Shown here in pieces: positions 47,277 to 56,881 of a DNA stretch of 64,000 nt (its first letter is position 1; each line of letters opens with the position of its first letter). The position numbers were made by a program, and so were the translations under genes. Origin of the DNA: Syntrophomonas sp. (GTDB lineage Bacteria > Bacillota > Syntrophomonadia > Syntrophomonadales > Syntrophomonadaceae). Below the pieces are notes generated by a model, which saw only the letters and a list, made by a program, of their open reading frames with translations, was not told the origin of the DNA and did not search any database. The stretch is taken from contig JAENZE010000001.1 of assembly GCA_016841425.1 (NCBI GenBank), forward strand, positions 1-64,000. Direction: 5' to 3'.

Positions 47277-48719
47277 CTAACTGACGGCAAATTTACTAAT
47301 TAGCTTTTTATCAGGGGTCATGAGGTGAATCGCACATGCCAGGCAGGGGTCAAATGACCTTACTACCCTTACGATTTCAACCGGATTGGCGGGATCAGCC
47401 ACTGGAGTGCCGATAAGAGCTTGCTCCATTGGCCCCTTAACCCCACGCTCATCTCGTGGTGACATATTCCAGGTGCTGGGCACTACGGAATTATATATGG
47501 CAGTCCGTTGGTGCTCAATCTTGTTCCAGTGTCCCAGTGCTCCACGAGGTGCTTCAGTGAGTCCCATACCCTGTGCTGATGCTGGTATTTCATAGGGGGT
47601 AGTCACTGGCTGGCCAGGTACTAATTGTCCCACCCATTCATCCATAGCTTTAGCAACCATCGAGCATTCTACAGCCCGGGCAAAGTGACGGCCCATAACT
47701 GAGAAGGCCTTATTACCCAGTCCCACCACGTCTTTTTGCTTCATAACCCATAGTCTGGCCAGAGGGCCAACTTCCATGGGTTGACCGTTATAACGGGGTG
47801 CTTTAATCCATGAGTAAGCATCTTTCTTTTCAGCATCTGGTTTGACTACTGCTTCAGTAGGTTTATTGCCCCCGGTGTCGTCAGCATACCAGGAATACTT
47901 GACTTCTTCAGCAATCATTTCCGGATCGAAATCTTTATACTGCCCCTGCAGGTAAATACCGGAAGGGAAGTACTTCTCTTTCTTTACATGGTCCATGCCT
48001 TCCTCCAGCGGCATAGCTCCATAGGAGAGCATATTCATGCAGCCCTGGCCAATTTCGAACCAGTCAGAATAAGCTCCAGCCACTGCCTGTACAATGGGAA
48101 TGTAAACATTATCTACAAAACCCTGTAATTCCTGGAGCCGGTACTTAAAATCGATAATTTTTTGTGCATCAGGCACTTCAGTAGTTCCGCCTGGTACTAT
48201 AGCCTGCTGATGAGGCATCTTTCCGCCCCATAGTGCTGTCATTTCGTGAGCTTTGGCACGCATTTTCAGTGCCTGTAAATAAGCATCAACAGCTGCCTTG
48301 TTGACATCATCCGGCAGGCGGAAGTCAGCTTCATATCTTGGAATAAAAGGCGGCACATCCGGTCCCTTAACAAAATCGAGAGCTGCCAGATGGAAAAAGT
48401 GCAGAATATGAGATTGCACATAATTAGACCCTAAAATAAGGTTCCTGATAATCCTCCCATTGGGTGGAGGTTCAATGCCAAAAGCATTGTCTAAGGCCAG
48501 CGTTCCCGCGCTGGCATGAGCTACCGGTCAAACGCCGCAGGTTCTCTGCATTACCTGAACAGCATCCCTGGGATCACGACCCTGCATGATAATTTCCAGG
48601 CCGCGGAACAGCATGCCCATAGACTTGGCATCAGTTACCACACCGCCCTCTACTTCTACCTCAACCGCCAGGTGGCCCTCAATGCGAGTGATTGGATCTA
48701 TTAATATCTTTTCTGCCAT
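47277..48719 (-). CDS. hyaB: [NiFe(Se)] hydrogenase large subunit with in-frame TGA (Sec64) in L1
   Basis: A 480-residue large subunit if TGA at 48528-48530 is read as selenocysteine. It starts MAEKILIDPITRIEGHLAVE (family start, with the proton-path glutamate in RIEGH). The L1 motif reads RTCGV-TGA-PVAHAS; every other hydrogenase of this type has cysteine at the TGA (RxCGVC). The frame stays open on both sides and continues as LALDNAFGIEPPPNGRIIRN. L2 near the end is DPC459LAC462AIH465, followed by a 15-residue tail for the HyaD protease. It overlaps the small-subunit stop by one base (TAATG). Without readthrough only 63 residues would be made. The alternative is a nonsense mutation or sequence error, disfavoured by the adjacent hairpin. 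Confidence 0.9.
48496..48515 (-). promoter_or_regulatory. Candidate bacterial SECIS hairpin
   Basis: On the minus strand, 12 bases after the TGA, GCCAGCG pairs perfectly with CGCTGGC around the loop CGGGAA. The loop occupies about nucleotides 20-25 after the TGA and contains G at its second to fourth positions. This is the placement seen in known bacterial SECIS elements such as fdhF of E. coli, which lie within the coding sequence just after UGA. Confidence 0.7.
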
Positions 48720-49783
48720 TAATTGTCACCCTCTTTCTCATCCTGGTTCTTTTTGGGACCGATACGACCAGTTAGTACATTACCAGCCAGATGACCGGCG
48801 ATACCTACTACTGCTGCTGCCCCCAGTACACCGCCTATCTGATCGACAGTTGCGGTAATGCCAGGTGCTATAGGCATTTCAGGTATTCTTTCGTATATAG
48901 GCCAACCGGGAAATTCGGGTTCCGTACAAGCGATACAGGGTGCGCCTGCCTTAATGCAGGTGTTCACCCCATTGTTCCATAGGCGATAAGTTGAATCACA
49001 GTGGGCGATAGGTCCTTTACAGCCCAACTCCAAGAGACAACCGGGATCGCCAAAATTCCTGGCAAAAATAGCGTTGTCAAAATACTGTCTTCTCTGGCAG
49101 TTATCATGGATTATGCCCTCGAAAAACATGGTAGGACGCCCAAATTTATCCAGTTCGGGCAGATCACCATAAAGCAATACATGAGCTATAGTTCCCACTA
49201 TCCAGTCCGGATGAGGCGGACAGCCGGGAATATTAATGATGGGTACATTCTTAACAATTTCACTTACAGGTTTGCAGTCGGTTGGATTAGGCGGAGTAGC
49301 TGGAATCCCTCCGAATGACGAACAGGTACCGACACTCAAAATTGCCATAGCCTGACTGCCAATCTCTTTTACTGCATCCATAAATTTAAGATGTTCTCCA
49401 TTTTTCTCTCCGATGATGCAGTAATTACCATCGGCACCAACCGGAACAGCACCTTCGACCACCAGGATAAAATTACCTTTATTTTCTTCGACCGTCTTGA
49501 ACAGACCTTCTTCAGTAGCCATGCTTCCAGCTGCGGCCATTACTGTCTGATGGAAACGCAGGCTTATTACTTCCAGTAATACCTTTTCAATATCAGGATG
49601 TACAGAGTTCAGAAGAGATACAGAACATCCGGAACAGCTCCCGCCCTGTATCCATATGACTGGAGGAGCTCCAGCAGCGACTGCTTCTTTCATGAAAGGT
49701 GCCAGGTATCCTGACAGAGATATCGCTGCAGCTCCGCCTGCGCATAATTTAACAAAATTACGACGACTAAGTTTGGTAGGCAT
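48719..49783 (-). CDS. hyaA: [NiFe] hydrogenase small subunit, Tat-exported
   Basis: A 354-residue iron-sulfur subunit. The N-terminus has a twin-arginine signal (SRRNFVKLCAGGAAAISLSG) that would carry the folded enzyme across the membrane. Cluster-binding cysteines are in IQGGSCSGCSVSLLN, SVGTCSSFGGIPA, PGCPPHP (proximal), and in DNCQRRQYFD, GCLLELGCKGP, CIKAGAPCIACTEPEFP (distal/medial). A C-terminal hydrophobic helix (about 315-335) anchors it. This is a group 1, membrane-bound, respiratory type arrangement with the cytochrome b downstream. Confidence 0.96.
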   Translation of the reverse strand: MPTKLSRRNFVKLCAGGAAAISLSGYLAPFMKEAVAAGAPPVIWIQGGSCSGCSVSLLNSVHPDIEKVLLEVISLRFHQTVMAAAGSMATEEGLFKTVEENKGNFILVVEGAVPVGADGNYCIIGEKNGEHLKFMDAVKEIGSQAMAILSVGTCSSFGGIPATPPNPTDCKPVSEIVKNVPIINIPGCPPHPDWIVGTIAHVLLYGDLPELDKFGRPTMFFEGIIHDNCQRRQYFDNAIFARNFGDPGCLLELGCKGPIAHCDSTYRLWNNGVNTCIKAGAPCIACTEPEFPGWPIYERIPEMPIAPGITATVDQIGGVLGAAAVVGIAGHLAGNVLTGRIGPKKNQDEKEGDN

Positions 49784-49889: not shown

Positions 49890-50558
49890 CTAAATCTTGC
49901 CTTTCTTTCTATTCACCTCCTCAAGTAACCAGTCAGTCCATTCTCTGATTCCCTGACCGGTGCGGCCCGATAGCATGAATGTTTGAGCTGTCGGGTTTAT
50001 ATTTTCCAGGTCCTTATGAAACCTTTCCAAACTGAAGTCCGTATATGGCAAAAGATCGATCTTGTTCAATATTACTGCCCGGGATTGATGGAATATTAAT
50101 GGATATTTTAGAGGCTTATCATTTCCTTCCGCGGTGCTCAGCACTACTACTTTATAATCCTCACCCAGGTCAAATTCTGCCGGGCATACCAAATTGCCAA
50201 CGTTTTCTATAAATATAATATCGAGATTACTACTTTCGGGAAGGTCCTTAAAGGCTTTGCCTACCATGCCTGCATCCAGGTGGCAGGTTCCTTCAGTATT
50301 AATCTGTATTACCTGCACGCCTTTCTTTTCGATGCGCTGAGCATCTTGATCTGTATACAGATCTCCTTCAATGACTCCCAGTCTAAGCTGGCCATTTAAT
50401 GCCTCAATGGTTCTCTCCAAAAGAGTGGTCTTGCCGGCTCCCGGAGAACTCATCAAATTAAGAACCAGCATTCCCTGGTTCTTAAAGTCACTTCGATTTT
50501 TTCGGGCCAGGAGTTCATTAGATCCCAGAATATTGCTTTCTAATTTAATTTGGACCAT
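49890..50558 (-). CDS. hypB: Hydrogenase nickel incorporation GTPase HypB
   Basis: A 222-residue GTPase that drives nickel insertion with HypA. P-loop LMSSPGAGKTTLLE, VIEGDLYTDQDAQRI, the metal site TEGTCHLDAGMV, IENVGNLVCPAEFDLGE and NKIDLLPY are all typical. There is no histidine-rich N-terminal nickel-storage stretch, which may be why separate nickel-handling genes (CooT, FmdE) are next door. AAGGAGA precedes the ATG. It lies 5 bases after hypA. Confidence 0.96.
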   Translation of the reverse strand: MVQIKLESNILGSNELLARKNRSDFKNQGMLVLNLMSSPGAGKTTLLERTIEALNGQLRLGVIEGDLYTDQDAQRIEKKGVQVIQINTEGTCHLDAGMVGKAFKDLPESSNLDIIFIENVGNLVCPAEFDLGEDYKVVVLSTAEGNDKPLKYPLIFHQSRAVILNKIDLLPYTDFSLERFHKDLENINPTAQTFMLSGRTGQGIREWTDWLLEEVNRKKGKI

Positions 50559-50563
50559 TTGCT

Positions 50564-50908
50564 TCAGTCTCCTTCGTAATAGTCTATATACAACTCCCGT
50601 CCGGATATGATTTCGGTATTATGGCCTGTACAGTTTGGACATATAAAATAATAATCATTATCAAGAGAAAAGGACTGTCTGCAGTCATGGCAGATGCAAT
50701 TAATATCCCTCTCTTCTATTTCAAGTACTGCACCCATAAACAGCTCTTCTTGTCCAAGTGCTTCAAATGCAAATAGCAGACTATCGGGCAAGGCCATGGA
50801 GAATTTACCCACTACTAATTTAATCTGCGTTATATTTGAAATACCATTTTGTACAGCACTTTCCCGTAATGTATCCAAAATACTTGACATCAAAGCTACT
50901 TCATGCAT
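50564..50908 (-). CDS. hypA: Hydrogenase nickel incorporation protein HypA
   Basis: A 114-residue nickel metallochaperone starting MHEVALMSSILD, where His2 and Glu3 bind nickel. The zinc domain has CHDC and CPNC pairs (CICHDCRQSF, FICPNCTGHN). ATG 50908 is the conserved start; the longer frame to 50995 reads through the leader terminator. It is the first gene of the hydrogenase transcript, preceded by a long leader ending in a terminator hairpin. Confidence 0.95.
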   Translation of the reverse strand: MHEVALMSSILDTLRESAVQNGISNITQIKLVVGKFSMALPDSLLFAFEALGQEELFMGAVLEIEERDINCICHDCRQSFSLDNDYYFICPNCTGHNTEIISGRELYIDYYEGD

Positions 50909-50989: not shown

Positions 50990-51180
50990 ACGCACAAAAA
51001 CATAGCAGCTGTACCCTTCATGAGCACGCTTTTATGATCTGCCTGACCTGAGCATCTCCTTTTCACAATAGGGGAAGGCATAACCGTTTCCAGTCATACC
51101 CAGGTTCCAGAACCATAGCTGTATACCACAGGCTTCTAGAACTCGGAGAAAAATATTTTTTTGTCCAGATAATAATAAGC
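50990..51180 (-). ncRNA. Candidate structured leader RNA of the hyp/hydrogenase operon
   Basis: On the minus strand, a closing helix GCCTG / CAGGC encloses three further elements: the hairpin GGTTCTGGAACC; an 8-bp stem GGTATGAC / GTTATGCC with loop TGGAAACG; and a weaker C-rich/G-rich pairing (TTCCCC...GGAGA). A terminator follows about 60 nt later. This junction plus expression platform looks like a riboswitch, but it does not match a class I can name. The remaining gap to 51383 is AT-rich with nothing clear. Confidence 0.4.
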
Positions 51181-51383: not shown

Positions 51384-52184
51384 TTAAAAACTCTTGGTAA
51401 GAGTAAAAGTACTGATTATATCTTCGTCAGCTACCGAGAACAAATAATTGCCACGAGCGGTCAAAAACAAACTGGACTTTCCATCATCATCAGTTACCAG
51501 GTGATGAGGATAATCATTATTGCTGGTTCCGGTATAAGTAGCCTTGACTTTTGCTCCGGAAAGGGGAAGCCCATTTTTTAATACCTGAATTTCATAGTTT
51601 TCGCCCATCCTGGCATGCTGATAATTGCCGGGTATAATTTCGAGCGGCAGCCCAGCCGGTTCTACCCCATGATGGTGATGATGGCCTACTTCCACAAATA
51701 TTTTGGCATAAAGTTCTTTATCTCCGCTTTCACGGGCATATATTTGTATCAAACCGTCTGCTTCTTCGCCGAGGTTTACCTCAATCATACTCTCGTTTAT
51801 ATGCAGTGGACATTCTCTGGATTTGCCGTACTGCTGCATGAATACCTGGGGATTGGAAAAAGTGTAGTCCTGGTTTGCTTTCATGTTATATCCTTTAAAG
51901 AGATTCAATTTAATTTCTTCGCCATCATGAAAGTGTCCGTGTTCGGTATCCAGGGTCAGCCATATTTCCTGTTCTTGGAACTCTGCTGCTCTCTTAATCT
52001 CTTCCAGTATTATCCGATGATGCACGAGCTGCATTTCCTTAATCCTAGCCTGGACAACTCTGCGCTCGCCAAATATGCTCTCCATAAAAATATTATTCTC
52101 ATCTCCGGGGATTATACGGTCAACTTTTTCCATTAACAATTCTTCTTTACCGTTGCGGTTAATATAGACATTGGCTTCGCACAC
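51384..52184 (-). CDS. CooT nickel-binding domain fused to DUF4198 domain
   Basis: A 266-residue fusion. Residues 1-62 match CooT, a small nickel-binding protein using Cys2 (MCEANVYINRNGKEELLMEKV, FGERRVVQARIKEMQLVHHRIILE). The rest resembles DUF4198, a domain found with nickel/cobalt uptake, including GHFHDGEEIKL, EVGHHHHHGVEP and an Ig-like end (SGAKVKATYTG). The natural five-histidine run is a likely metal site. DUF4198 is normally exported, but no signal peptide is seen, so the protein should be cytoplasmic. GTG start after AAAGGAGG; last gene of the nickel operon. Confidence 0.85.
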   Translation of the reverse strand: MCEANVYINRNGKEELLMEKVDRIIPGDENNIFMESIFGERRVVQARIKEMQLVHHRIILEEIKRAAEFQEQEIWLTLDTEHGHFHDGEEIKLNLFKGYNMKANQDYTFSNPQVFMQQYGKSRECPLHINESMIEVNLGEEADGLIQIYARESGDKELYAKIFVEVGHHHHHGVEPAGLPLEIIPGNYQHARMGENYEIQVLKNGLPLSGAKVKATYTGTSNNDYPHHLVTDDDGKSSLFLTARGNYLFSVADEDIISTFTLTKSF

Positions 52185-52186
52185 GC

Positions 52187-52789
52187 TTATTCGCCTCCTT
52201 TGTCAATACAGCAGGTTGGGCATACAATTTCGTTAGCAGTTATTACTGCACGAGCATCCATAACACCTTCACCGCAAACTGAACACTCAAGGGTTTTACG
52301 AATCTCGGCTTTATCTGGAAAACTAAAATCTACCTCACGCCATTGAAAAATGTCTTCAAATGGCGCAGTCATTATACTCTCAAAAATCTGTCCTAACAGG
52401 TTTTCCTGTTCAGTTTTCTCCTGGGAGGTTAACTCAGCTTTGTTATTGAGTTCACGATAACGAGCAAATAGTGGGCTGCGGTTGGCATTATACTTCTGGG
52501 CTATGCGCACCGCCCTCCCCTTATCTCTGCTGGCAATGGTGTATACTGCCTTACCATAATCTTTGAAGATAAGATTACCTTTTCCAAAGGTGCAGCCTAG
52601 TATAGCTTGAATAGCATCAACCCCGCAGGAATTGGTCTCCACTACCGCCAGCAGTTCCTCATCTCGATCCCTTTCTAACTCCAGATGCTGGATAGCAAAT
52701 TCGGAGGCTCTAACTCCCATTAAGAGTCCAGGACATATATGCCCGTGAAATTGTATGGCTAGTTCCAGGGGAGGCATATCCCTGCACAT
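52187..52789 (-). CDS. FmdE-family protein with C-terminal zinc ribbon
   Basis: A 200-residue protein of the FmdE (formylmethanofuran dehydrogenase subunit E-like) family. The signature ELAIQFHGHICPGLLMGVRASEFA and VVETNSCGVDAIQAILGCTFGKGN holds metal-binding His and Cys residues. The C-terminus has two CxxC pairs (CSVCGEG, CPTCC). Bacterial FmdE proteins are linked to metal and molybdenum/tungsten metabolism. Its place between nickel transporter and CooT genes suggests metal delivery (inference). Confidence 0.88.
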   Translation of the reverse strand: MCRDMPPLELAIQFHGHICPGLLMGVRASEFAIQHLELERDRDEELLAVVETNSCGVDAIQAILGCTFGKGNLIFKDYGKAVYTIASRDKGRAVRIAQKYNANRSPLFARYRELNNKAELTSQEKTEQENLLGQIFESIMTAPFEDIFQWREVDFSFPDKAEIRKTLECSVCGEGVMDARAVITANEIVCPTCCIDKGGE

Positions 52790-52816: not shown

Positions 52817-53239
52817 CTAAAACTTCTGGTTATCAAATATTTCTCTGACTCTGCTTACCAAACGATCTACCTGCATCGGCAGGGGTTCATCAACAGCTCC
52901 GGTTAGCTCTATACCATAACGGTTAAGGGGAATAAGTACTTTAAGAGCCGATGCAGATGAAACTGCTTCTGCCATGGCAGGCGTAAGTTCTCCAGAATAG
53001 GAGTTGGCGGCCAAAATCGCTACTGAGCCAACTATCAGATTAGCCCGGGTAATCGTCCTGACTACGGCATTTTCTCCACTGGCTCCTTCATTGGCACCTG
53101 CTTTTAACATTACTGAGGTAGCTACCGCATTGGTACCCAGTCCTATAATACTGCATTCCTGTCCCAGTTCATGACGCAGCTTTTCTACTATGACCCGTCC
53201 TATTCCCCCTCCCTGACCATCTATCACAGCAATTATCAC
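52817..53239 (-). CDS. DUF3842 family protein
   Basis: A 140-residue protein starting MIIAVIDGQGGGIGRVIVEKL, a Rossmann-like nucleotide-binding opening. The family has no known function. It recurs next to cobalt/nickel transport genes in Firmicutes, as here, directly after cbiO. No membrane segment. Confidence 0.82.
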   Translation of the reverse strand: MIIAVIDGQGGGIGRVIVEKLRHELGQECSIIGLGTNAVATSVMLKAGANEGASGENAVVRTITRANLIVGSVAILAANSYSGELTPAMAEAVSSASALKVLIPLNRYGIELTGAVDEPLPMQVDRLVSRVREIFDNQKF

Positions 53240-53319: not shown

Positions 53320-54057
53320 TTATATGTTCCGCAGGGAATGAGGAACTTCCAGGGAATGTTTTTCCATTAAATTCCCATTACCCATTATATCTCGTGGTTT
53401 GCCATCAGCCGCTATTTGTCCCTGATCCAACAAAATTACCCGGCTGCAGATTTCTAATATAAACTCAAGATCATGAGAAGCTATCAAAGCTGCTTCCTGG
53501 TTATAGGTATTGATAAAATTTATTAACTTACGCCGATACTTCATATCCAAATTAGAGGTTGGTTCATCATAGATGGCCAGCTGTGATTGCATAGCAAGAA
53601 TACCGCCTGCGATAGCAACCAGCCTTTTTTCTCCTCCAGACAGTTGATGTGGTGGTCGGGATTTAAGATGATGAATCCCCAGAACTTCAAGGGCTTCGTT
53701 TACCCTTCGGGCCACTTCTGGCTCTGAAAGACCCATATTGCGAGGTCCAAAAGCTATGTCTTCAAATACTGAAAAATTAAAAACTTGATCATCGCTATCT
53801 TGAAATACCAAGCCTAACTCAGTGTTAAAGCTTCCGGGTAGAATTAATTTGTTATTAAGATAAACTTCACCACTCGAAGGTTTTTCAACCCCGGCAATAA
53901 TTAAAAAAAGACTGGTCTTGCCCGCGCCATTAGGGCCAAGCACTCCAATTTTTTCGCCTCTGGATACATTTAATGATAAGTTATCCAGTATCATACGGTC
54001 CTGCTTATATGCGAAACTTATATTTGATATTCTTAATAGCATTTCGTTATCGGACAT
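53320..54057 (-). CDS. cbiO: Nickel/cobalt ECF transporter ATPase (CbiO-like)
   Basis: A 245-residue ABC ATPase. Walker A is GVLGPNGAGKTSLF, Q-loop VFQDSDDQVFN, signature LSGGEKRLVAIAGGIL, Walker B LAIYDEPTSNLD and the H-loop ALIASHDLEF. The DDQVF segment is typical of energy-coupling-factor ATPases. It lies 3 bases after cbiQ. It powers metal uptake by CbiM and CbiQ. Confidence 0.95.
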   Translation of the reverse strand: MSDNEMLLRISNISFAYKQDRMILDNLSLNVSRGEKIGVLGPNGAGKTSLFLIIAGVEKPSSGEVYLNNKLILPGSFNTELGLVFQDSDDQVFNFSVFEDIAFGPRNMGLSEPEVARRVNEALEVLGIHHLKSRPPHQLSGGEKRLVAIAGGILAMQSQLAIYDEPTSNLDMKYRRKLINFINTYNQEAALIASHDLEFILEICSRVILLDQGQIAADGKPRDIMGNGNLMEKHSLEVPHSLRNI

Positions 54058-54060
54058 TGG

Positions 54061-54831
54061 TTAAACCCCCGGCATATTCAAATAAATCTGTATTGAACTT
54101 ATCATTAGTGCCAGGACGGCAAAAGAGTAACACAGGGTTTTATCCTTCCTGCTCCAACTCATGCATGGGATATAATTTTGTTCAAAGCCGTAACCACGAA
54201 CAGCCAGGGCTCTATATACTCTCTCTGATTGATCAAAACTACGTACCATGATACCACCGATAAGGATTGCATACTCTTTCCAGCTGCTGATCTTATTACC
54301 TGCAAATCCCCTCAATACCATCGCAGTTTTCATCTGCTCTAACTGCCAGTGTAGAGTATACAGGTACCTCAAAGTGAACAGGGTCATATCAGCCAGTATC
54401 CTGGGCAAGCCAAGATTGCGCATCGCAGTAATGATGGTCAGCAAAGGAGTGGTTTCAAACAGAATTACTATTAAAGTTATAATTGACATCACTCTGCTGG
54501 TTATAAGAGTAAATCCAATTAGACCTTCCCGGGTAATTTTAAAAGGACCTGCAGATGCCAGGAGATGTCCTTCTGACAAAAATAGAAGCATAGTACCCGT
54601 TACGAGCACTAGAACAGCTGGAATTTTCCAACGCTTGAGCAGGTTGCGAAAAGGTATACCTGATAAAAAAAAGATCACCGAACAAATAACAAGCATAAAA
54701 ACGGCCAATTCTATACTTTTAACCATAGCAAAAGAAAAAAGCAGCAGGGTAAAAGCGAGCAGTTTTGATCTGGGTTCCCATTGGTGAAAGATGTTATTCG
54801 ATTGGCAATCTGTGTTTATCAATGTTTTCAT
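54061..54831 (-). CDS. cbiQ: Nickel/cobalt ECF transporter permease (CbiQ-like)
   Basis: A 256-residue membrane protein with about five or six helices. The ECF T-component signature is visible: MVLRGFAGNKISSW (A-R-G) and VYRALAVRGYGFEQNY, coupling helices that touch the ATPase. It lies between cbiM and cbiO. Confidence 0.93.
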   Translation of the reverse strand: MKTLINTDCQSNNIFHQWEPRSKLLAFTLLLFSFAMVKSIELAVFMLVICSVIFFLSGIPFRNLLKRWKIPAVLVLVTGTMLLFLSEGHLLASAGPFKITREGLIGFTLITSRVMSIITLIVILFETTPLLTIITAMRNLGLPRILADMTLFTLRYLYTLHWQLEQMKTAMVLRGFAGNKISSWKEYAILIGGIMVRSFDQSERVYRALAVRGYGFEQNYIPCMSWSRKDKTLCYSFAVLALMISSIQIYLNMPGV

Positions 54832-54849
54832 AAAATGAACCCCACATAA

Positions 54850-55491
54850 TTATAGTTTTGTTTCAAGTATTTCTGGCTTAACCTGTTTAAGATAGTTGAG
54901 TACCAAAGCCGTAATAATACCTTCGATAATTACCAATGGAATATGCCCAAGAGCGCCAGCATAAATCGCAATTTTCTCGGTATCTGCATTAATATTGGAC
55001 GGAATGAAATTAATAAGAATGACTACAAAAAGAACGACACTGAGGGCAATTCCTATTGAACCGGAAACGAAGCCCACAATGGAGTGGCGTATGGGATTAT
55101 ATTGGGGATTGCTGAATCTACAGTATATGAAGCTGCTCACCATAGCAGGTAATCCCATAATAACAGCATTGATTCCAAGAGTAGTAAGCCCTCCATGGCC
55201 AAACATCACGGCCTGAAGGAACAGGGCTACCAGTATCGCTGGAAAAGCGAAATATCCCAGTATCGCTCCCAGGAGGCCGTTTAATATCAGGTGTACACTG
55301 GTAGGGGGTACAGGTATATGAATTAAAGAGGCTGCAAAAAATGCTGCAGTAAGAAGGGAAGCTTTAGGTATAGAACGCACTGTTTCCCCGGACTGGTTTA
55401 TTTTTTTTATCGAATAGCCTGCTGCCACCAGGGTAAGTCCGTAACCAGCCGCACATACACCTGCAGAGAGCATTCCATCTGGAATATGCAT
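54850..55491 (-). CDS. cbiM: Nickel/cobalt transporter substrate-binding component (CbiM)
   Basis: A 213-residue membrane protein whose mature start MHIPDGMLS provides the His2-dependent metal site. Further ligands are expected in PPTSVHLILNGLLGAILG and MFGHGGLTTLGIN. ATG 55491 is chosen because this N-terminus is essential in the family. It begins within a base of the stop of the preceding gene. With hydrogenase and HypAB next door, nickel is a more likely substrate than cobalt (inference). Confidence 0.95.
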   Translation of the reverse strand: MHIPDGMLSAGVCAAGYGLTLVAAGYSIKKINQSGETVRSIPKASLLTAAFFAASLIHIPVPPTSVHLILNGLLGAILGYFAFPAILVALFLQAVMFGHGGLTTLGINAVIMGLPAMVSSFIYCRFSNPQYNPIRHSIVGFVSGSIGIALSVVLFVVILINFIPSNINADTEKIAIYAGALGHIPLVIIEGIITALVLNYLKQVKPEILETKL

Positions 55492-55492
55492 G

Positions 55493-55933
55493 TTATTTTT
55501 TCTCCCTCTTAAAATATAAAGCGGTTCCAATTAATCCCCATATTACAGCTATAGCCATGACTGCCATCTGCGCAGAAGTATAACCGGTATTGGACGCAGC
55601 TAAACTATCCTCTCCTACTTCCAGGTTAATTGTTCCTCCGTGGCCAGCTTTTCTAAACTGTACTGTCCAAATCCCGGGTTTGGAGATATCGGGCAAAAAG
55701 GAATATTTTCCTTCATCGTTGCTGCTCCCGGTTGCCCAGGCATTTTTGGGGTCGTCAGGAGCATAAACCGTTACCTGGGCTTCTGATAGGGGAGTACCGT
55801 CATCATAACTGCCGGTAATTAAATAGGCCATACTGGATTGATACTCAAATTCAACTCCATGTGCCATGGCAGTACCAGAGACTAGTATTATAAAAATGAA
55901 TACCAATATTGGGATCAGTATATGATGTTTCAT
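55493..55933 (-). CDS. NikL/CbiL-like accessory membrane protein
   Basis: A 146-residue protein with a signal peptide (1-24, cut near AMAHG) whose mature start has His. A carboxypeptidase-regulatory-like beta domain follows (YLITGSYDDGTPLSEAQVTVYAP) and a C-terminal membrane helix (about 120-140) ending KREKK. This plan, placed directly before cbiM, fits the accessory L component of nickel transporters. It probably presents metal to CbiM. Confidence 0.8.
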   Translation of the reverse strand: MKHHILIPILVFIFIILVSGTAMAHGVEFEYQSSMAYLITGSYDDGTPLSEAQVTVYAPDDPKNAWATGSSNDEGKYSFLPDISKPGIWTVQFRKAGHGGTINLEVGEDSLAASNTGYTSAQMAVMAIAVIWGLIGTALYFKREKK

Positions 55934-55958: not shown

Positions 55959-56786
55959 TTATAATTCTTCTGCAAAAGCATGACCTTCACCAACGTGACC
56001 CAGAGTCGGAATGATGTCAAGGTATTTACCATAATCTTCCGAGGAAAAACCAGATTCTATGTTTTCGCCGGAAATATCGATTTGCCCATTTTCAACCAGA
56101 GCCGCAAACGGTGCAAAACCCAATGCAGCAGTGTTTAATCCATCATCAGCCTGAAGATCTCCATCACCGAAAATATGATCAAAATGGAAAGTCATTTCCA
56201 GATCAGCCGGGCAATCAGCTTCGACAATACCTTTGCGCTCATCGCCCACGTATTCACCCGCATAATACTGGTATTCCTGATTAATACCTATTTTAAAGGG
56301 AATGGTCTCTCCATTTTTAGAAGCAGTACCCACGATCAAGATAGTATTACCTGCTGCATCCCCGGATACCGCTTGCACAATTTTCCAGGATATGGCGTTG
56401 TAAAAACCAGCCGGCACATCAATCTGACCAACACTGATAGTGTCTGCATCGTCTCCGCCCTCGGCCAGATCTACGGTGAAAGAGCCAGGCAGGGATACCA
56501 TATTATCAGATTCAATCGCCTCATGATTATCTGCTTCATATGGTGGATTTGTAATATATGCATTAATTTCACTTAATGTAACCAAAACTTTGTCAAATGA
56601 AATGTTCCATCCATCTTTGGACACGAATCCCTGTCTTACAAAATCCTCACCGTTGGCTTTAAATTCCAGGGTACCTACTTGCGACTCTGAACTTGCTTCG
56701 TTCTGGGCCTGATTATCATTTGAGCTGCATCCTGCAACAACTATGAGAATGAATACCAAAAGCAAAGCCATACATATTTTTTTCAC
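55959..56786 (-). CDS. Putative metal-binding lipoprotein, first gene of the nickel operon
   Basis: A 275-residue lipoprotein. GTG 56786 follows GGGAGG. The signal ends in the lipobox VVAGC. The mature part is acidic, with possible metal-binding segments (EMTFHFDHIFGDGDLQ and GHVGEGHAF near the C-terminus). It is the first gene of the nickel-import operon and may capture metal outside the cell. I do not recognise a named family with confidence. The leader upstream has a terminator hairpin. Confidence 0.78.
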   Translation of the reverse strand: MKKICMALLLVFILIVVAGCSSNDNQAQNEASSESQVGTLEFKANGEDFVRQGFVSKDGWNISFDKVLVTLSEINAYITNPPYEADNHEAIESDNMVSLPGSFTVDLAEGGDDADTISVGQIDVPAGFYNAISWKIVQAVSGDAAGNTILIVGTASKNGETIPFKIGINQEYQYYAGEYVGDERKGIVEADCPADLEMTFHFDHIFGDGDLQADDGLNTAALGFAPFAALVENGQIDISGENIESGFSSEDYGKYLDIIPTLGHVGEGHAFAEEL

Positions 56787-56824
56787 TAAGAATACCTCCC
56801 GTTTTGTATTCTGGATTATAGGCA

Positions 56825-56881
56825 GAAAAAAACCACGAACAAATATGAGCGCTTTCAAGCTGCCATAAACCTTCGTGGTTT
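56825..56881 (-). terminator. Terminator hairpin in the nickel-operon leader
   Basis: Minus strand AAACCACGAA / TTCGTGGTTT (plus arms 56872-56881 and 56830-56839), with further pairing in the large loop, followed by TTTTTTTCTGCC. It is about 40 nt before the GTG start. No minus-strand gene lies upstream within the window to the next divergent gene, so it most likely acts as an attenuator. Confidence 0.8.

Follow-up and report, generated by a model that had tools for sequence, protein, structure and literature searches.

The stretch of DNA analysed here (the window) is 64,000 nucleotides long and comes from contig JAENZE010000001.1 of a Syntrophomonas sp. genome. Its reverse strand carries genes of a nickel/cobalt-type ECF importer, a gene fusing a CooT domain to a DUF4198 domain, hypA, hypB and the genes of a [NiFe] hydrogenase. 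In the direction of transcription, the features are:

55493-55933 (-), NikL-like membrane protein (NF058648, 34.6 bits, under the cut-off of 100)
54850-55530 (-), CbiM/NikM-type S component (PF01891, E 3.3e-53; NF004906)
54061-54831 (-), CbiQ/NikQ-type T component (TIGR02454, 136 bits)
53320-54057 (-), CbiO/NikO-type ECF ATPase (family profile matches)
52817-53239 (-), DUF3842 gene (PF12953, E 2.7e-50)
52187-52789 (-), FmdE-family gene whose product ends in a zinc-ribbon-like C-terminus, the immediate upstream neighbour of the fusion and conserved in that place (PF02663, E 6e-42)
52194-52199 (-), ribosome-binding site of the fusion, AGGAGG
51384-52184 (-), cooT-DUF4198 fusion gene, 266 residues, GTG start (reading frame, Pfam matches of both halves, 27 aligned homologues plus G176)
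52002-52184 (-), CooT domain, residues 1-61, with the invariant Cys2
51387-51977 (-), DUF4198 fold, residues 70-266
51927-51941 (-), HGHFH motif, residues 82-86, its three histidines invariant; H84/H86 are proposed counterparts of Zcp H29/H31
51669-51683 (-), histidine run, residues 168-172; H168 aligns with Zcp H142
51040-51160 (-), Moco (Mo/W cofactor) riboswitch in the hypA leader (RF01055, 60.6 bits)
50564-50908 (-), hypA, likely start at 50908 (TIGR00100)
49890-50558 (-), hypB (TIGR00073), whose sequence has no His-rich tail
48719-49783 (-), [NiFe] hydrogenase small subunit, a conserved neighbour, assigned by sequence and position
47277-48719 (-), [NiFe] hydrogenase large subunit, with an in-frame TGA at codon 64 (PF00374; read-through translation)

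The fusion gene is a single uninterrupted reading frame, and the coordinates, strand and 266-residue length given in an earlier note on this DNA are correct. A strong ribosome site, AAAGGAGG, lies 9 nt 5' of the GTG codon, which supports the assigned start and, with it, the position of Cys2. The protein begins with M-C-E, and the end of the FmdE-family gene is 2 nt from the fusion start. The earlier note had named a sequencing frameshift joining two genes as what would overturn its proposal; such an artefact is excluded by the same continuous, full-length frame in 28 genomes. In a profile search of both halves, CooT and DUF4198 each exceed the Pfam curated cut-offs.

The N-terminal domain is identified as CooT by both profile and fold, as had been proposed. 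Residues 1-61 match PF10133 with 81.7 bits against a cut-off of 27 (E 4.5e-23), and residues 2-64 of the predicted model superpose on Carboxydothermus hydrogenoformans CooT (6fan) with a Z-score of 12.5 (62 aligned residues, rmsd 1.3, 48% identity). Sequence, fold and an invariant Cys2, found in 27/27 aligned fusions, are shared with this protein and with CooT of R. rubrum. CooT binds nickel with a Kd of 9 nM, at one nickel per dimer and with the involvement of Cys2 (PMC6006190). Known CooTs are stand-alone proteins of ~65 residues tied to CO dehydrogenase (CODH), whereas here the domain belongs to a 266-residue fusion and CODH is absent. Stand-alone CooT occurs in ~100 genomes outside the order, among 398 genomes of the phylum.

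The remainder of the protein is a DUF4198 domain, again in line with the first proposal. The Pfam match (PF10670, residues 153-252, 64.8 bits against a cut-off of 34, E 1.6e-17) understates this domain, since structure matches span residues 70-266 as a complete fold. In an AlphaFold2 model built from 19 sequences (mean pLDDT 85.5, pTM 0.77), these residues find their best match in Zcp (PDB entries 9mhi-9mhn; Zcp chain 20-265), with a Z-score of 22.5, an rmsd of 2.4 and 191-192 aligned residues. Residues 72-265 match chain 1-213 of nickel-bound IsDUF4198 (9gcb, labelled NikK in its PDB entry) with a Z-score of 16.4. The model thus supports the CooT and DUF4198 folds for the two halves, and from the structure matches CooT would occupy the place of the N-terminus in mature exported DUF4198 relatives. 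The solved Zcp chain starts at about residue 20, has no CooT domain and was solved with Zn, Cu and Co. IsDUF4198 is a secreted protein that binds nickel with a Kd of 18 nM through an N-terminal His brace (His1 and His18), and it is stabilised most by nickel among metals (PMC12537917); in contrast, the DUF4198 domain of the fusion, which is probably cytosolic (see below), has no free N-terminal histidine. A literature search returned no paper on Zcp and no open paper joining CooT to DUF4198, the sole co-mention appearing to be the name of the Coot software.

Eight residues are invariant in the 27 aligned fusions: C2, H56, H82, H84, H86, H168, H171 and H190. The five-histidine run described earlier is real and conserved in homologues; besides H168 and H171, positions 169 and 170 are His in 26/27 sequences and position 172 in 22/27. 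H168 aligns with the histidine of a V-G-H segment in Zcp (match E 2.4e-10); in entry 9mhk, whose title names H29A/H31A/H142A, that histidine is replaced by Ala. Chain numbering in the Zcp entries seems to run 6 ahead of the native numbering, and H29 and H31 would therefore be the HTH of AHTHGGE. This segment resembles H84-F-H86-D-G-E of the fusion through an HxHxGE motif common to both, in an alignment that falls below threshold, and H84/H86 are tentatively assigned as the counterparts of H29/H31. The three residues mutated in Zcp would then appear to match H84, H86 and H168.

A cytosolic location of the fusion protein is supported by its sequence. The N-terminus is taken by the CooT domain and a hydrophobic leader was not found, which rules out a signal peptide, as the earlier note had held. 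Its description of DUF4198 as usually exported is, however, untrue for most relatives recovered in this phylum. The majority of the DUF4198 genes recovered from anaerobic Bacillota encode no hydrophobic leader, as judged by a simple hydropathy window rather than a trained predictor and with L054 and L062 less clear-cut, and nearly all carry an HxH motif after a conserved Trp. The motif is missing from L064 and L070, whose leader is clear. NikK of the NikKMLQO transporters is also a DUF4198-type domain encoded with an ECF transporter, but it is an extracytoplasmic component, and its N-terminal His brace, formed after signal cleavage, is absent in the fusion, which has neither a signal peptide nor a histidine at the domain start. 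Given the cytosolic DUF4198 subfamily of anaerobic Bacillota, loss of the signal peptide from an exported NikK-type protein is too simple an account of the DUF4198 half. A free member of the cytosolic type ends in a His-rich tail (L061, 162-890, reverse strand). The genome of this Syntrophomonas sp. holds no DUF4198 beyond the fusion.

In three genomes, the same cytosolic HxH type is tied to nickel/cobalt import through fusion to the CbiO ATPase. In G219 and G447, the ABC ATPase and DUF4198 lie within one reading frame downstream of CbiQ, both above Pfam cut-offs, and G431 has a near-identical frame (L060 557-2050 on the reverse strand, L079 616-2139 and L080 1414-2937 on the reverse strand). 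The partner is a transporter ATPase in these proteins and CooT in the present one. The CbiO-DUF4198 fusions therefore locate the DUF4198 domain where metal leaves the importer on the cytosolic side.

The full-length fusion is found in 27/46 genomes of the order, or 28 genomes with G176, and in none of the 398 genomes of the phylum outside this order. In a tree, the DUF4198 domains of these proteins group as a single clade (100/100 support), and a scan of named genomes yields 18 fusion loci, nearly all labelled Syntrophomonas or Syntrophomonadaceae. Of the 46 genomes (G000-G045), 25 contain both the fusion and a [NiFe] hydrogenase, 2 only the fusion, 2 only the hydrogenase and 17 neither (Fisher p 1.5e-8, with no correction for kinship); the two vary in step within genera g1, g3, g6, g10 and g11. 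Part of this co-occurrence may be due to joint loss of one block, since the fusion and hydrogenase genes are linked in most loci. CODH is above cut-off in only two of the 27 fusion genomes (G012, G037) and nowhere in the genome under study, where the sole match (25.4 bits against a cut-off of 478), probably a hybrid-cluster protein, was rejected as a partner. The link to nickel and hydrogenase proposed at the outset is thus supported: within the order, the fusion follows [NiFe] hydrogenase rather than CODH. In genus g18 (G021, G036) the fusion is retained although no [NiFe] hydrogenase was detected; the g18 fusions (L074, L075) are divergent and lie with DUF3842, without FmdE.

This genus bears on a reading in which the protein would serve a different enzyme with a metal other than nickel, for example cobalt or zinc. 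The metals in the Zcp structures and the service of the importer family to cobalt too would fit such a role. However, CooT binds nickel tightly (PMC6006190), nickel is the metal that stabilises IsDUF4198 most (PMC12537917), and co-occurrence and synteny with [NiFe] hydrogenase genes are strong, so that we regard another metal as improbable.

The order DUF3842-FmdE-fusion is conserved in most named loci, mostly followed by ECF transporter, hypA/hypB and hydrogenase genes; the search for further fusions near hyp genes, suggested in the earlier note, indeed places hypA/hypB nearby in most of them. DUF3842, a family of unknown function, is the immediate upstream neighbour of stand-alone cooT at no fewer than 63 of 120 sites outside the order, and also in L057 and L058, and is therefore probably a nickel-related gene. 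Its predicted structure (mean pLDDT 62.3) is too low in confidence for a fold search. An FmdE-family gene lies directly upstream of unfused cytosolic DUF4198 genes in L090 (6754-8937) and L096 (5985-7832). The fusion thus unites two recurrent gene pairs, DUF3842/cooT and FmdE/DUF4198. Upstream of the NikL-like gene, a putative lipoprotein (55959-56858, reverse strand) with weak family matches only might be an external nickel-capture protein replacing NikK.

The earlier note had the fusion ending a nickel-import operon just before hypA. The importer genes do lie upstream in the same operon, but ~475 nt including the Moco riboswitch precede the hypA start, and hypA therefore probably begins its own transcription unit. 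The riboswitch recurs ahead of hypA-hypB-[NiFe] hydrogenase genes in L033, L034, L035 (two copies), L036, L043 (two copies), L046, L048 and L076, and could toggle between a Mo/W formate dehydrogenase and a nickel hydrogenase. No NiCo riboswitch was found at the gathering score. Together with FmdE, which adjoins both the fusion and the unfused cytosolic genes, the nearby Moco riboswitch could connect the protein to molybdenum/tungsten or formate dehydrogenase metabolism. The riboswitch is, however, downstream of the fusion, the g18 fusions do without FmdE, and we know of no Mo/W role for CooT or the DUF4198 family; such a connection is highly improbable.

The fusion is best read as a relay and buffer of nickel for hydrogenase, because the importer lies in its operon and the hydrogenase nearby, while CODH, SlyD and a His-tailed HypB are missing. 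Nickel would enter through the ECF transporter of the same operon (CbiM/CbiQ/CbiO plus the NikL-like protein) and be picked up on the cytosolic side by the DUF4198 domain, through the invariant H84, H86 and H168 backed by the remainder of the His run. CooT, as a probable dimer, would offer the high-affinity Cys2 site and hand nickel on to HypA/HypB for the [NiFe] hydrogenase. The protein probably doubles as a nickel buffer, since HypB is confirmed to be devoid of a His-rich tail and the genome has no SlyD; its sole FKBP sits in a 456-aa frame, is probably trigger factor and was rejected as a nickel store. We infer nickel as the metal, a donor or storage role, dimerisation, the direction in which nickel moves and an interaction with HypA/HypB or CbiO, and hold this cytosolic acceptor and relay with buffering at about even confidence. 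In its favour, tight nickel binding has been published for both domain families (PMC6006190, PMC12537917). Against it stand the g18 fusions, the metals of the Zcp deposits, the riboswitch between fusion and hypA, and the report that R. rubrum CooT does not act on the Coo hydrogenase (PMC6006190).

A simpler role would be that of a store or detoxifying buffer alone, in which the His run and the two sites absorb nickel with no directed transfer to HypA/HypB. The conserved His run, the free DUF4198 protein with its His-rich tail and the want of SlyD and of a His-tailed HypB all fit this role. Typical His-rich stores, however, carry more clustered histidines than the fusion, and its ordered fold and the CbiO fusions suggest a specific handover, which leaves a pure store rather unlikely. 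The conserved His cluster, taken with the CbiO-DUF4198 fusions, suggests a relay at the importer and not just a store.

Two nickel-binding domains that are normally apart are united in one protein of Syntrophomonas-type bacteria. As its gene travels with nickel importer and [NiFe] hydrogenase genes, this protein probably passes imported nickel to the hydrogenase assembly machinery. CooT is here uncoupled from CO dehydrogenase, and a cytosolic branch is revealed in DUF4198, a family described as secreted. The intracellular route of nickel from importer to enzyme assembly is poorly known, and the handover step would become directly testable through this conserved join and the related fusions to the ATPase of the importer. 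A broader and more doubtful conjecture is that cytosolic DUF4198 might be the so far missing acceptor for nickel leaving its ECF importers, docking at the CbiO/NikO ATPase and, in some lineages, directly fused to it; joined to CooT in Syntrophomonadales, it would deliver nickel straight to hydrogenase maturation, bypassing the free pool.

In the N-terminal motif (RTCGV-U) of the hydrogenase large subunit, the in-frame TGA at 48528-48530 (reverse strand) takes the place of the second Cys, which suggests a selenocysteine there and not in the usual C-terminal motif. One TGA is found in the same region of the large subunit in several relatives, and SelB is present in the genome under study.
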